64,000 nt of DNA from Stappia taiwanensis (GTDB lineage Bacteria > Pseudomonadota > Alphaproteobacteria > Rhizobiales > Stappiaceae): contig NZ_BMCR01000001.1 in the NCBI RefSeq assembly GCF_014635285.1, positions 248,001 through 312,000 of the forward strand. The letters run 5' to 3'. The translations under genes were made by a program, and so were the position numbers. Below the pieces are notes generated by a model. It was not told where the DNA came from. It saw nothing but the letters and a program-made list of their open reading frames with translations, and did no database searches. Shown here piece after piece: positions 44,299 through 49,366 of this stretch; positions within the stretch are counted from its first letter, which is position 1; each line of letters starts with the position of its first letter.

Positions 44299-44417
44299 AA
44301 TAAATAACGCCCACCGGAGGGAGGAGAACCGGTGGGCGCCATTTATTGGCAACCGATGCTGGGAGGAGGTGCACCGGTTGTACAACGGGGCCAGACGTTG
44401 GGAGGAGGAGTGTCCGG
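44299..44417 (-). ncRNA. Three-hairpin anti-Shine-Dalgarno RNA array B (cuckoo/CcsR-like)
   Basis: On the minus strand three hairpins in a row each hold a CUCCUCCC-type loop. First, CCGGAC/GTCTGG at 44417-44391. Second, CAACCG+GTGC/GCAT+CGGTTG at 44380-44350. Third, CGCCCACCGG/CCGGTGGGCG at 44338-44308, with an outer AATAAAT/ATTTATT stem. The first and second stems each contain a pair that is G-U on the minus strand but would be A-C on the plus strand, so the RNA is read from the minus strand. The third hairpin is followed by a T-rich tail. The motif matches the CcsR/cuckoo RNA family of alphaproteobacteria, thought to sequester ribosome binding sites or protein partners under stress. No DUF1127 gene precedes this copy. 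Confidence 0.75.
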
Positions 44418-44490
44418 CGCCGTTGAGAGACATATGGGGGAGTCGGCCCGGGATTGCCAGAGCCGAGGTTGCATATCAGCTCTGAACTCA

Positions 44491-44517
44491 GTGCAGGGCA
44501 CTGCACAATTTTTCAAG
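44491..44517 (-). promoter_or_regulatory. Dyad and sigma-32-like -35 element upstream of RNA array B
   Basis: GTGCAG, 4 bases, CTGCAC (44491-44506) is a perfect 6-bp dyad. CTTGAAA on the minus strand (44517-44511) matches the -35 of heat-shock (RpoH) promoters. No good -10 is seen at the right spacing, so this is only a candidate promoter or operator for array B. Confidence 0.3.
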
Positions 44518-44735: not shown

Positions 44736-45314
44736 ATGAAGCCCTGCCGTCTCACCTCCGCCGGTCTCATCGTTCAGGCCGATGGCTCCAGTTATCCACT
44801 GCCGGACGTCGATGCGGCCGAGATTCTTGTGCCCCATCTGGCGCCACGTGTCGAAACCTATGAGTTGGCGGGCTTGGGCGAGATCGGCGTTCTGATCCGC
44901 TATTCCTGTCATTGCTGGACCAGCAAATATGATGAGGCACTCCATAACGGCGTGATCCGGATCATGGATCGTGGGCGGGCGCGCGCCTTTGACCCTGCGC
45001 GCTATGCGGCCTCGTTGGAACTGCCGGAGCTGATGCGGGATCTGCCGCACAAGCGGATCTATGCCACGCGGGGCGACCGCAACTATGGCTGCTATGATGC
45101 GAGCCGGCGCGATGCGGATGGGCTCTGCTATACGGCCTATTTCGCACTGAAGGCGCGCAAGGGCCTATGTGATGCTGCCCCCTATAGTTTCCGCTTGTTC
45201 GTTGAAAGCGCCTATCCCAAGGCGCAGCAGGAGCCAGGTCGGGCAACGAGCCTGCGTGCGATCCTTGGCAGGTCCCGCGCGGGGACAGAGATTGGCGAGG
45301 AACCCGAAGACTGA
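44736..45314 (+). CDS. Conserved-looking protein of unknown function
   Basis: A 192-residue protein I cannot assign. It looks globular and cytoplasmic, with no signal or membrane segment. Notable elements are a Cys/His/Trp patch RYSCHCWTSKYDEALH near residue 54, RIYATRGDRNYGCYDASR, and an aromatic strand LCYTAYFALKARKG. The C-terminal SFRLFVESAYPK is followed by a disordered tail. Four or five cysteines could bind metal. AGAAG lies just before the ATG. It runs antisense between the two minus-strand RNA/DUF1127 units and ends at a bidirectional terminator. Confidence 0.65.
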   Translation: MKPCRLTSAGLIVQADGSSYPLPDVDAAEILVPHLAPRVETYELAGLGEIGVLIRYSCHCWTSKYDEALHNGVIRIMDRGRARAFDPARYAASLELPELMRDLPHKRIYATRGDRNYGCYDASRRDADGLCYTAYFALKARKGLCDAAPYSFRLFVESAYPKAQQEPGRATSLRAILGRSRAGTEIGEEPED

Positions 45315-45402: not shown

Positions 45403-45549
45403 TCAGCGATGGGTGCGGGCGATGAAGTCGATGTCGCCACGGCCGATGCCGAGATCGCTGAGCTCACGGTTGGAGAGCCGCGACAGCTCGTAATAGGTCT
45501 GCCGGTACTTCTGCCAGGAATTGTATTTGCGCACGAGGGTGTCGAACAT
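45403..45549 (-). CDS. DUF1127 small protein (first copy)
   Basis: A 48-residue arginine-rich protein: MFDTLVRKYNSWQKYRQTYY, then ELSRLSNRELSDLGIGRGDI and a short DFIARTHR tail. This is the DUF1127 (YjiS-like) pattern. In Rhodobacter and Agrobacterium such proteins act as RNA-binding or phosphate/stress adaptors. The ATG at 45549 matches the family start; longer frames from 45612 add unrelated residues. Two helices with an E-L-x-D-L-G-I turn are expected. It is followed by a terminator, with no anti-Shine-Dalgarno hairpins between. Confidence 0.9.
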   Translation of the reverse strand: MFDTLVRKYNSWQKYRQTYYELSRLSNRELSDLGIGRGDIDFIARTHR

Positions 45550-45743: not shown

Positions 45744-45863
45744 AAAAAAAAGCGATCGCCCGCCGGAGGGAGGAGAACCGGCGGGCGACGCTATTTCCGG
45801 ACGAGGCTGGGAGGAGGATGCCTCGCCGGGCACGCTAAAGGGACAGGGGAGGAGGTCTATCCC
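45744..45863 (-). ncRNA. Three-hairpin anti-Shine-Dalgarno RNA array A (cuckoo/CcsR-like)
   Basis: Minus-strand RNA just downstream of the second DUF1127 gene. Hairpin 1: GGGATAG/CTGTCCC around ACCUCCUCCC (45863-45840). Hairpin 2: CGAGGC/GCCTCG around AUCCUCCUCCCA (45825-45802), extended by CCGG/CCGG. Hairpin 3: CGCCCGCCGG/CCGGCGGGCG around a UUCUCCUCCCU loop (45787-45757), extended by AGCG/CGCT and followed by eight T, so it doubles as an intrinsic terminator. Hairpin 1 needs a G-U pair that exists only on the minus strand. In Rhodobacter the CcsR RNAs are likewise processed from a transcript led by a DUF1127 gene; homology is inferred from loop motif and context. Confidence 0.8.
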
Positions 45864-45878
45864 TTTGAACGTGATCTC

Positions 45879-46028
45879 TTATCGGCTCACGCGCTTGGCG
45901 ATGAAGGGAATGTCGCCGCGTGCAATGCCAAGGTCGTCAAGTTCGCGCGTCGTCAAGCGCGACAGCTCGGAAACCGTGCTCTGGTAGCTCTTCCAGGACC
46001 GGTACTTGCGCGTAAGTGACTCAAACAT
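45879..46028 (-). CDS. DUF1127 small protein (second copy)
   Basis: A 49-residue protein: MFESLTRKYRSWKSYQSTVS, then ELSRLTTRELDDLGIARGDI and the tail PFIAKRVSR. It aligns end to end with the copy at 45403-45549 (same length, about 60% identical), so the pair looks like a local duplication. It lies 15 bases upstream of RNA array A and would share its transcript, the arrangement known for CcsR RNAs. The promoter must lie in 46029-46140, where I see no clear -10/-35 pair. Confidence 0.9.
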   Translation of the reverse strand: MFESLTRKYRSWKSYQSTVSELSRLTTRELDDLGIARGDIPFIAKRVSR

Positions 46029-46138
46029 CGGATGGCCTCGCCAGATTTGCGCCGCTGCCGTTCCGCGTCAGCGCCGCGTCAATTCGATGACCGGTAGATA
46101 GATTTTCCAGCTGATGAAAAAAAGAGCGATTTGTGCAT

Positions 46139-46180
46139 GGCAGGGGTGCGGATTGTGCATTGCAACATCACACCCCTGCC
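46139..46180 (-). terminator. Hairpin downstream of uvrA
   Basis: GGCAGGGGTG pairs with CACCCCTGCC (10 bp) around a 22-base loop, 28 bases after the uvrA stop. A run of seven T on the minus strand follows about 17 bases later. A probable uvrA terminator, although the T run is not adjacent. Confidence 0.5.
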
Positions 46181-46208: not shown

Positions 46209-49181
46209 CTATTCGGCGGCACTCATCCGCCGGATCGGTCGTCGTGCGAGTACCTCGCGCAGGAACTGCCCGGTGTAGCTTTCCGGCACCTCGGCGATTT
46301 CTTCCGGAGGACCGGCGGCAACCAGCGTTCCGCCGCCATCACCGCCCTCCGGCCCGAGATCGAGAATCCAGTCGGCGGTCTTGATGACCTCCAGATTGTG
46401 TTCGATCACCAGCACGGTGTTGCCTTGGTCGACCAGCTCGTGCAGCACCTCCAGCAGTTTCGCCACATCATGGAAGTGCAGGCCGGTGGTCGGTTCGTCG
46501 AGGATATAGAGCGTGCGGCCGGTGGCGCGCTTGGCCAGCTCCTTGGCCAGCTTGACGCGCTGCGCTTCGCCGCCGGACAGGGTGGTGGCCTGCTGGCCGA
46601 CCTTGATATAGCCGAGCCCCACCCGGGCGAGGGTCTCCAGCTTGTCGCGCACGGCCGGCACGGCGGAAAAGAACGCGGCACCTTCCTCAACTGTCATGTC
46701 GAGCACATCGGCAATCGATTTGCCCTTGAACAGAACTTCAAGCGTCTCCCGATTGTACCGCTTTCCCTGGCAGACATCGCAGGTGACATAGACGTCGGGC
46801 AGGAAGTGCATCTCGATCTTGATGACACCGTCGCCCTGGCAGGCCTCGCAGCGTCCGCCCTTGACGTTGAAGGAGAACCGGCCCGGCGCATAGCCGCGGG
46901 TCTTGGCTTCCGGCAGGCCGGCAAACCACTCGCGGATCGGTGTGAAGGCGCCGGTGTAGGTCGCCGGGTTGGAACGCGGCGTGCGTCCGATCGGCGACTG
47001 GTCGATGTCGATCACCTTGTCGAGCAGTTCCAGCCCGTCGATATGATCGTGCGGCGCCGGGTTGTCGCGGGCGCCGTTCAGCCTCCGCGCCGCCGCCCGG
47101 TACAGGGTGTCGATCAGGAAGGTCGACTTGCCGCCGCCAGACACGCCGGTGATGCAGGTGAAGGTGCCGAGCGGAATGTCGGCGGACACGTTTTTCAGAT
47201 TGTTGCCGCGCGCGCCCGCCACATGCAGCCGGCGCGCCTTGGAGATCTCGCGGCGCATGGCCGGCATGGGAATCGTCAGGTCGCCGGAGAGATAGCGACC
47301 GGTCAGCGACGCCGGGTTGGCGAGGATGTCCGCCGGGGCCCCTTCGGCGACGATCTCACCGCCATGCACGCCCGCGCCCGGGCCGATATCGACCACGTAA
47401 TCGGCGGTCAGCACCGCATCCTCGTCATGCTCGACCACGATCACCGTGTTGCCCAGGTCGCGCAGGTGCTTGAGCGTTTCCAGCAAGCGGGCATTGTCGC
47501 GCTGATGCAGACCGATTGACGGCTCGTCGAGCACGTAGAGAACCCCGGTGAGACCCGAACCGATCTGCGACGCCAGCCGGATGCGCTGGCTTTCGCCGCC
47601 GGACAGGGTGCCGGAATTGCGCGCCAGCGACAGATAGTCGAGCCCCACGTCATTGAGGAATTTCAGCCGCTCGCGAATTTCCTTCAGGATTCGCACGGCA
47701 ATTTCGCTCTGCTTGGTGGTGAGGTGATCCGGCAGCGCGGAGAACCAGTCGCCGGCCTCACGGATCGACAGCTTTGCGATGTCGCCGATATGGCAATCGG
47801 CGATCTTCACCGCCAGCGCTTCCGGTTTCAGCCGGTGGCCACCGCAGGTGGGGCAGGGGCGGTCGGACTGGTAGCGCGACAGCTCCTCGCGGACCCATTC
47901 GGATTCGGTCTCGCGCCAACGCCGCTCGATATTGCCGACGACACCCTCGAAGGTCTTGGAGGTGCGATAGCTGCGCACCCCGTCATCATAGACGAATTCG
48001 ATCTTCTCCCGCCGGGTGCCGAACAGGATGGCGTTGCGCAGCGTCTCCGGCAGGTCCGACCAGGGCGCGGTCATCGAGCCGCCGAAGTGCCGGCAGAGCG
48101 CTTCCAGGGTCTGCGCATAGTAAGGAGATGTCGAGCCGGTCTTGGCCCAGGGCAGCACCGCCCCGCCGCGTAAGGACAAGCTATGGTCTGGCACCACCAG
48201 TTCCGGCTCGAACGCCAGCGTGGTACCGAGCCCGTCGCAGGCCGGGCAGGCGCCGAACGGGTTGTTGAAGGAGAACAGGCGCGGCTCGATTTCCGAGATG
48301 GTGAAACCGGAAACGGGACAGGCGAATTTCTCTGAAAAGACAATGCGTTCGTGGGTTTCGTTGCGATTCTGCAGCACCGCATCGCGGCTCTTGTCCGCAG
48401 CCGGCAACGGCCGATCGGCATATTCGGCAATGGCGATGCCATCGGCCAGCGATAGGGCCGTTTCCAGCGAATCTGCCAGCCGTCCAGAGATGTCGCCGCG
48501 CACGACAATGCGGTCGACCACCACGTCGATGTCGTGTTTCAGCTTCTTGTCGAGCGCCGGGGCTTCGGAAATCTCGTGGAACTCGCCGTCGATCTTGACC
48601 CGCTGGAAGCCCTTCTTCATCAGCTCGGCCAGTTCCTTGCGGTATTCGCCCTTACGCCCGCGCACCACGGGCGCCAGCAGATAAAGTCGCGTTCCTTCCT
48701 CCAGCGCCAGCACCCGGTCGACCATCTGGCTCACCGTCTGGCTCTCGATCGGCAGACCGGTCGCCGGCGAATAGGGCACGCCGATGCGCGCGAACAACAG
48801 GCGCAGGTAGTCGTAGATTTCGGTGACCGTGCCGACCGTCGAGCGCGGGTTGCGCGAGGTCGTCTTCTGCTCGATGGAGATGGCCGGCGACAGGCCGTCG
48901 ATCTGGTCGACATCCGGCTTCTGCATCATCTCCAGGAACTGGCGGGCATAGGCCGACAGGCTTTCCACGTAGCGGCGCTGTCCTTCGGCGTAGATGGTGT
49001 CGAACGCCAGCGACGACTTTCCGGAACCGGAAAGGCCGGTCATCACGATCAACTGATCGCGCGGCAGGTCGAGGTCGACATTCTTCAGGTTATGCTCGCG
49101 CGCGCCCCGCACGCTGATCATGCGCCGGTCCGGTGCGGACTGGGGAGCGGAAGGGGGGGGGGTCGAGCGGGTCTTGGCCAT
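46209..49181 (-). CDS. uvrA: Excinuclease ABC subunit A
   Basis: A 990-residue damage-recognition ATPase of nucleotide excision repair. The first Walker A is [14 protein letters not shown] and the second [14 protein letters not shown]. Signatures are [15 protein letters not shown] and [16 protein letters not shown], and Walker B is [12 protein letters not shown]. The C-terminal zinc finger has CEAC and CDVC pairs. The first zinc module is altered, reading CPVSG instead of CPxCG, with the second pair CPAC intact. The ATG at 49181 is preferred to a TTG four codons upstream. An SOS box and promoter lie upstream, shared with ssb. Confidence 0.97.
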
Positions 49182-49366
49182 TGGTGTCTGCAATCCCTGG
49201 CGTTGCGGTGCCGGAGTTATTCAGGAATTTCGGGCGATGCGGTCCCGGAGTGAGGATCCGTTCCGCCGCGCCGTTCTACGCTATGACGGCGGATGCGTCG
49301 ATTGACGAACGCGACCCGGCGAGGGTTTCTAGTTTTGTACGTTTCGGCATGGAAGTTCGATTGCAT

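Follow-up and report, generated by a model that had tools for sequence, protein, structure and literature searches.

The 64,000-nucleotide stretch of Stappia taiwanensis DNA analysed here (the window), from a host genome of 4.42 Mb, carries on its minus strand, in this order, uvrA (ORF 46209-49193), a short DUF1127 gene (DUF1127-A), a three-hairpin array (array A), a T run, a second DUF1127 gene (DUF1127-B) and a second array (array B) (Table 1). An earlier note on this DNA had called a 49-residue DUF1127 gene on the minus strand, and the ORF indeed matches Pfam DUF1127 at 49.5 bits (cut-off, 23.3). DUF1127-A is identical in Stappia indica SN13-18, the nearest named relative that we found. The gap between the gene and the hairpins, put at 15 bases in that note, measured 12 nt from the stop codon to the first stem core. 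DUF1127-B and array B were both absent from the note. Read by eye, an inverted repeat and T run 3' of DUF1127-B look like a terminator, and between this gene and array B lies a plus-strand ORF (44736-45314, 192 aa) without a Pfam match.

Table 1. Genes, hairpins and promoter elements at the two DUF1127 genes and arrays of the window
Feature	Position	Strand	Remarks
LsrB/VtlR-type composite box	46135..46159	-	TGCA-CAATCC-GCAC-CCC-TG-CCA-T-GC; DUF1127-A promoter; matches TGCANNNNNNGCANNNCNGNCATGC exactly
Putative -35 of DUF1127-A	46119..46124	-	CTTTTT; 17 nt ahead of the -10-like hexamer, within conserved sequence
Putative -10 of DUF1127-A	46096..46101	-	CTATCT; exactly 58 nt from box start
DUF1127-A gene	45879..46028	-	49 aa, Arg-rich (7 R, pI 10.1)
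Array A, alpha-r14 (cuckoo) sRNA	45751..45876	-	directly 3' of DUF1127-A; RF02344
Array A, hairpin 1	45837..45866	-	10 bp, loop ACCTCCTCCC
Array A, hairpin 2	45797..45830	-	10 bp, loop ATCCTCCTCCCA
Array A, hairpin 3	45755..45789	-	12 bp, loop TTCTCCTCCCT; also likely intrinsic terminator
Eight-T run past hairpin 3	45744..45751	-	
DUF1127-B gene	45403..45549	-	48 aa; Pfam 53.2 bits; between arrays A and B
Weaker box ahead of array B	44471..44495	-	TGCACTGAGTTCAGAGCTGATATGC; score 7.7, rank 3 of 127,944
Putative -10 of array B	44432..44437	-	CCATAT; 58 nt from box start
Array B, second alpha-r14 sRNA	44299..44425	-	three hairpins: 44383-44425, 44350-44380, 44299-44347

The hairpins of array A adjoin one another and carry loops of the CCUCCUCCC type, that of hairpin 3 having CTCCTCCC, one letter short. 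Could such an array have arisen by chance? Its minimum free energy was -70.1 kcal/mol (z -9.71), and none of 200 shuffles equalled it; array B folded with a z of -9.54, again equalled by 0 of 200 shuffles. Three CTCCTCC motifs spaced 18-46 nt apart occurred at two places in the 4.42-Mb genome, both of them in the window and corresponding to arrays A and B, and the reversed-pattern control occurred nowhere in that genome. Chance is excluded as an explanation of the three-hairpin array. A covariance-model search for the cuckoo RNA family, proposed beforehand as a check, placed array A above the gathering score of Rfam family RF02344 (ar14) (65.2 bits; gathering, 58.8), and array B outscored it, with 82.7 bits at 44302-44428. 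Among the 150 of 425 candidates in the genome that were scored, these were the only matches above gathering; the others were weak (18.7-23.9 bits). We conclude that array A is a member of the ar14 family. The three minus-strand hairpins with CCUCCUCCC-type loops described by the earlier note hold up, and its reading of the loops as anti-Shine-Dalgarno (aSD) sequences and of hairpin 3 with its eight T as terminator is supported.

The choice of relatives rested only on similarity to the DUF1127-A protein (best 80 of 96), and 79 of the 80 loci were scored, L110 having too little downstream sequence. At least one aSD hairpin lay within 400 nt downstream of the DUF1127 gene at 66 of the 79 loci, at least three lay there at 44, and 13 had none in that stretch; being related, the loci do not supply independent events. 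Upstream stretches gave aSD hairpins at 2/79 loci and the antisense strand at 0/79. When random 400-nt stretches were taken elsewhere in the loci, 11/2100 had at least one hairpin and 0/2100 had two.

Array A was aligned across 21 sequences (the window and 20 of 26 array stretches, omitting L141, L144 and four second arrays of genomes already represented), and the loop motif columns were invariant throughout. Of the alignment cells in stem positions, 86.8% were paired, compared with 36.1-48.2% when partners were slid, a control biased in favour of the tested structure, which was the window's own fold. Two-sided pair changes numbered 20 against 13.9 in shuffles, and 0 of 500 shuffles reached as high; further pair types (40 vs. 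39.7, with 270 of 500 shuffles as high) did not rise above shuffles. With this covariation and these invariant loops (n = 21), stems and loops are kept in related genomes, a point on which the earlier note had staked its proposal.

The layout DUF1127-array-DUF1127-array recurs in same-family genomes, with exceptions: within the sequence used, 6 of 40 loci showed no DUF1127 gene next to a hairpin, among them L142, L145, L148, L152 and L154, and L135, which is counted among the six, is without a second array. In same-genus relatives, array A begins 10-13 nt past the DUF1127 stop codon in 13/13 cases and ends in a terminator-like hairpin. Perhaps the hairpins are then a cis element of the 3' UTR, serving stability or termination, with the loop kept for contact with a protein or the ribosome? 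The three-loop design occurs also away from the gene, however, in some copies with a box of its own (array B, below), and NfeR1, which belongs to the ar14 family, represses in trans via these very loops (PMC10746234). We regard a purely cis-acting element as very unlikely.

DUF1127-B and array B are separated by 977 nt in the host genome as well as in S. indica SN13-18 (L129); in the remaining 12 same-genus relatives, for which the finder overlooked some first hairpins, the gap is 185-283 nt. Array B is intact despite the intervening ORF, which suggests that its transcription is independent of that of DUF1127-B; it is probably autonomous, with its own promoter. Larger arrangements also occur: L141 (G017) has four consecutive three-hairpin arrays behind one DUF1127 gene, and L146 (G025) has an eight-hairpin cluster, an expanded array.

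When upstream regions were aligned, a conserved block, TGCA-N6-GCA(T)-N3-TG-N3-T-GC, stood out before DUF1127-A; it was looser before array B and DUF1127-B. Two published operators bear on this block. The LsrB site of PnfeR1 is given as TGCA-N6-GCAT at -72 to -60 (PMC10746234), and the VtlR box as GCAT-N3-TG-N3-T (PMC7486931), the motif of VtlR in Brucella being written CAATGCAGCCATGCA (PMC12595884). The box in the window is one base off the former, with TGCA-N6-GCAC, and one base off the latter, with GCAC-CCC-TG-CCA-T; several same-genus relatives, L120, L121 and L122 among them, have the exact published forms.

The pattern TGCANNNNNNGCANNNCNGNCATGC had three exact matches in the host genome, compared with one for the reversed pattern, and 48 in 37 genomes, compared with three reversed; 24 of the 37 genomes had a match. 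By hand comparison, 21 of the 48 matches lie at the DUF1127-ar14 locus, a share that is not independent, the pattern having been derived from such promoters. The third exact match in the host genome (L170 1501-1525, contig 2) lies upstream of what by eye is a SpeD-like ORF, with a spermidine synthase nearby. At L169 1501-1849, also on contig 2, the composite box precedes a 74-aa Arg-rich small protein. Relatives of this protein were present at 12 of the 36 box loci searched, and it shows no detectable kinship with DUF1127 (Pfam, no hit; our own HMM, E of 0.073).

Training of a box matrix used 19 same-family promoters, with neither the window nor S. indica SN13-18 among them. Of 127,944 positions in the window, the top-ranked one was the DUF1127-A box (score, 37.7; next, 9.2). 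The matrix recognised no box at DUF1127-B in the host genome (score, -9.4; rank 294), and it gave the array B box of S. indica SN13-18 a score of -3.0. Within 300 nt upstream of DUF1127, scores of at least 16 were reached at 37 of 71 test loci (L049-L119, without the nine Stappia-type loci L040-L048; a few are loosely named MAGs, for which kinship to the training family is possible) and in 0/1944 control stretches; 31 of the 71 loci scored under 12. Loci with a box (score of at least 12) had two or more hairpins in 34 of 40 cases, compared with 18 of 31 without a box (Fisher p 0.015), a comparison to which L110 contributed only about 200 nt of downstream sequence. The DUF1127 gene of L118, which also has a strong box of the LsrB type (score, 23.4), comes from a MAG that bears the name Octadecabacter, and mis-binning is possible.

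Do arrays come in two modes, one sharing the promoter of a DUF1127 gene and the other with a box of its own? Distinct clusters with at least two hairpins numbered 124, and 64 of them abut DUF1127 (at most 35 nt from its stop codon). None of the 64 had a box (score of at least 4) between 130 and 20 nt ahead of hairpin 1. Among the 60 non-abutting clusters, 19 had a box (score of at least 6) before hairpin 1. Ten of these 19 boxes lay 73-74 nt ahead of hairpin 1, and eight more non-abutting boxes lay at 104-119 nt, which may reflect a missed first hairpin. Because 41 of the 60 non-abutting arrays have no recognisable box before hairpin 1, the two-mode rule is only partial.

The spacing between box and promoter is fixed. 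In 21/21 aligned DUF1127-A promoters, the start of the box and a -10-like NTANNT hexamer were exactly 58 nt apart. Of 20 array B promoters, 12, that of the window included, had CCATAT exactly at +58 of the best box match, although 3 of these 12 had negative box scores. If the start is assumed to lie 7 nt past the -10, the DUF1127-A box would sit at about -70 to -58. Consensus scoring proved uninformative as a guide to the sigma factor and was set aside: many random stretches fit the sigma-70 or sigma-32 consensus at least as well as the hexamers do, and the consensus match of the putative -35, CTTTTT, is by itself at chance level.

The earlier note had equated the locus with the CcsR and cuckoo systems. 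The kinship stands, through Rfam ar14 and CIN1; identity at the level of control is not supported, DUF1127-A being preceded by an LsrB/VtlR-type box and by no standout RpoH-like promoter. Might an RpoH-type promoter nonetheless drive the operon under heat or oxidative stress, as in CcsR logic proper? The gene order is that of the ccaF1-CcsR operon, which is driven by an RpoHI/RpoHII promoter (PMC10253847), and SmelA075 of S. meliloti, an ar14 family member, is reported to be stress-induced and to have several processed forms (PMC3927594), which favours the stress induction and processing proposed in the earlier note, though for another locus. At array B, CTGGCA-N17-CCATAT has 2 mismatches to a sigma-32-like form, a match equalled by 20 of 400 control stretches, and this promoter leans to that form. 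Before DUF1127-A, however, the best sigma-32-like match has 3 mismatches, a level equalled or bettered in 131 of 400 random stretches, and it lies away from the conserved hexamers; the element that is strongly conserved there is the LsrB/VtlR-type box at its fixed spacing. We consider RpoH control of this operon unlikely, and an LsrB/VtlR-type input to array A is better supported than the CcsR-type input assumed in the earlier note. Stress induction by another route is possible, because LsrB is redox-linked (PMC11975290).

Is a matching regulator encoded in the genome? On contig 2, at about 536.9-537.8 kb, a LysR-type gene directly follows trxB. The best PDB match of its product is 9hh1 (E 1.9e-128; next match, 2.9e-31), which the depositing Agrobacterium paper presents as the LsrB structure (PMC11975290). 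Similarity and gene order suggest an LsrB/VtlR orthologue, and we call the gene LsrB-like. The trxB-lsrB-abcR order is matched as well (L211 3040-4525, contig 2), with two tandem AbcR-like repeats downstream, in the place that abcR1 and abcR2 of Agrobacterium occupy after lsrB (PMC7486931). Each repeat has the CTCCTCCC motif, together with GCAT-N3-TG-N3-T sequences, and in both the matrix box starts 59 nt before CATATA (distances by eye). Rfam gave only two sub-threshold SorX matches on the repeats (20.6 bits; gathering, 46.6); place, aSD motif and box are what make them AbcR-like. A further candidate, on contig 9, scored 62.9 bits for RF00519 (suhB) and was rejected, as NCBIfam showed no LysR or trxB among 10 of its 16 surrounding ORFs. 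One paper confines LsrB to the Rhizobiales (PMC11975290); another describes strong divergence of the VtlR/LsrB pathway between species, and in that study LsrB left AbcR unaffected in S. meliloti (PMC7486931).

We consider it quite probable that this is a Stappia DUF1127/alpha-r14 (CIN1, cuckoo) locus in which an LsrB/VtlR operator drives a short transcript that yields a trans-acting aSD RNA. LsrB-type activation at the composite box would produce one short transcript, made up of a leader, DUF1127-A and the three-hairpin RNA, which would double as terminator. Array A itself, or a product processed from it, would serve as a trans-acting sRNA. In this RNA every loop would expose CCUCCUCCC, imitating the 16S anti-Shine-Dalgarno, and would pair with GGAGG-type ribosome binding sites, so that target mRNAs would be translated less, as with NfeR1. 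Array B, about 1.4 kb away and with a related box in a promoter of its own, would be a free-standing NfeR1-like sRNA. NfeR1 itself is a single 123-nt three-hairpin transcript that is activated by LsrB in S. meliloti; its three loops are redundant on two ABC transporter mRNAs, and ntrB is also silenced (PMC10746234).

Perhaps such an array does not regulate a set of mRNAs but serves as a Shine-Dalgarno decoy, a global damper of translation initiation? Its three near-identical short loops are complementary to the general Shine-Dalgarno core. The full 9-nt complement, moreover, is hardly enriched before ATG in the host genome (9 sites vs. 3 in the control), with about 3 credible ORFs by judgement (466, 282 and 128 aa), and we rejected it as a target predictor as too weak. 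NfeR1, on the other hand, has the specific, tested targets named above (PMC10746234). A global damper seems to us unlikely, and we favour an LsrB/VtlR-driven RNA that would act on particular mRNAs. As for the protein, DUF1127-A may be an RNA-binding helper of processing, like CcaF1, which helps CcsR RNA maturation (PMC10253847), or it may act on proteins instead. It may also be unrelated to the RNA function, because YjiS shows no binding to RNA and PhoR is what DUF1127 proteins act on in Agrobacterium; protein targets are reported in Salmonella too (PMC12501420).

More broadly, we lean towards the view that in Hyphomicrobiales the DUF1127-cuckoo operon is a unit of LsrB/VtlR, a redox-sensing LysR protein, and in Rhodobacter one of RpoH: the same effector with a swapped input. 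The operator TGCA-N6-GCAT-N3-TG-N3-T, 58 nt before the -10, would then feed DUF1127 proteins, alpha-r14 RNAs, AbcR RNAs and the second, 74-aa Arg-rich protein. In Brucella, VtlR activates three DUF1127 genes and AbcR2 (PMC12595884). Three published threads (DUF1127/VtlR, NfeR1/LsrB and the DUF1127-CcsR operons) are joined in this way into one testable regulon, and arrays that share a DUF1127 promoter offer a natural comparison with arrays that have their own. Because protein and RNA would be co-produced here, the locus is also an entry to the question of whether DUF1127 acts on RNA or on proteins.

Much of this is known in print: the RNA family, its loops, the DUF1127 link (CIN1) and the mode of action, the pairing of DUF1127 with aSD RNA having been published as the CIN1 locus and as ccaF1-CcsR (PMC10253847). 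In the literature passages covered, which do not extend to the original Brucella VtlR, 2021 Agrobacterium LysR-sRNA and cuckoo RNA papers, no DUF1127-array operon is described as an LsrB unit, NfeR1 is not treated together with DUF1127, and nothing joins DUF1127, sRNA and CCUCCUCCC, or ar14, sRNA and Brucella. Reinkensmeier and Giegerich are said to have described the cuckoo RNA family and the CIN1 locus in 2015. The CIN1 definition, a short DUF1127 gene adjoining CcsR-like aSD RNAs, fits the Stappia locus.

How, then, does the locus compare with known systems? The alpha-r14 RNA NfeR1 (Smr14C2) of S. meliloti (RF02344) shares with it the three hairpins, the ultraconserved CCUCCUCCC loops and the variable stems, and its LsrB-type box (-72 to -60), upstream of a sigma-70 promoter, has a near-equivalent before DUF1127-A (about -70 to -58 from the assumed start). 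NfeR1 as described is free-standing, which array B resembles, whereas array A lies 12 nt past a DUF1127 stop codon. The cuckoo RNA family at CIN1 has in common with it the short DUF1127 gene and adjacent CCUCCUCCC-loop hairpins; the double layout and the LsrB-type promoter set Stappia apart, as far as citing papers describe CIN1. With ccaF1-CcsR1-4 of Rhodobacter sphaeroides it shares the order of DUF1127 gene, aSD RNAs and terminator in one unit. There, CcaF1 has 71 aa and an RpoHI/HII promoter serves four sRNAs, several separate sRNAs being released by RNase E with help from the DUF1127 protein (PMC10253847); in Stappia, a 49-aa protein is followed by one three-hairpin array, behind an LsrB/VtlR-type box. 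The uORF-duf1127 attenuation operon of S. meliloti likewise places a DUF1127 gene under post-transcriptional control, although that control resides in a 5' leader with a uORF (PMC12218461). Finally, the VtlR/LsrB regulon comprises DUF1127 genes, AbcR and other sRNAs, and the window box is within one base of both its published forms. In that regulon as described in the passages covered, DUF1127 genes and sRNAs are separate targets, whereas in Stappia one promoter would serve both.
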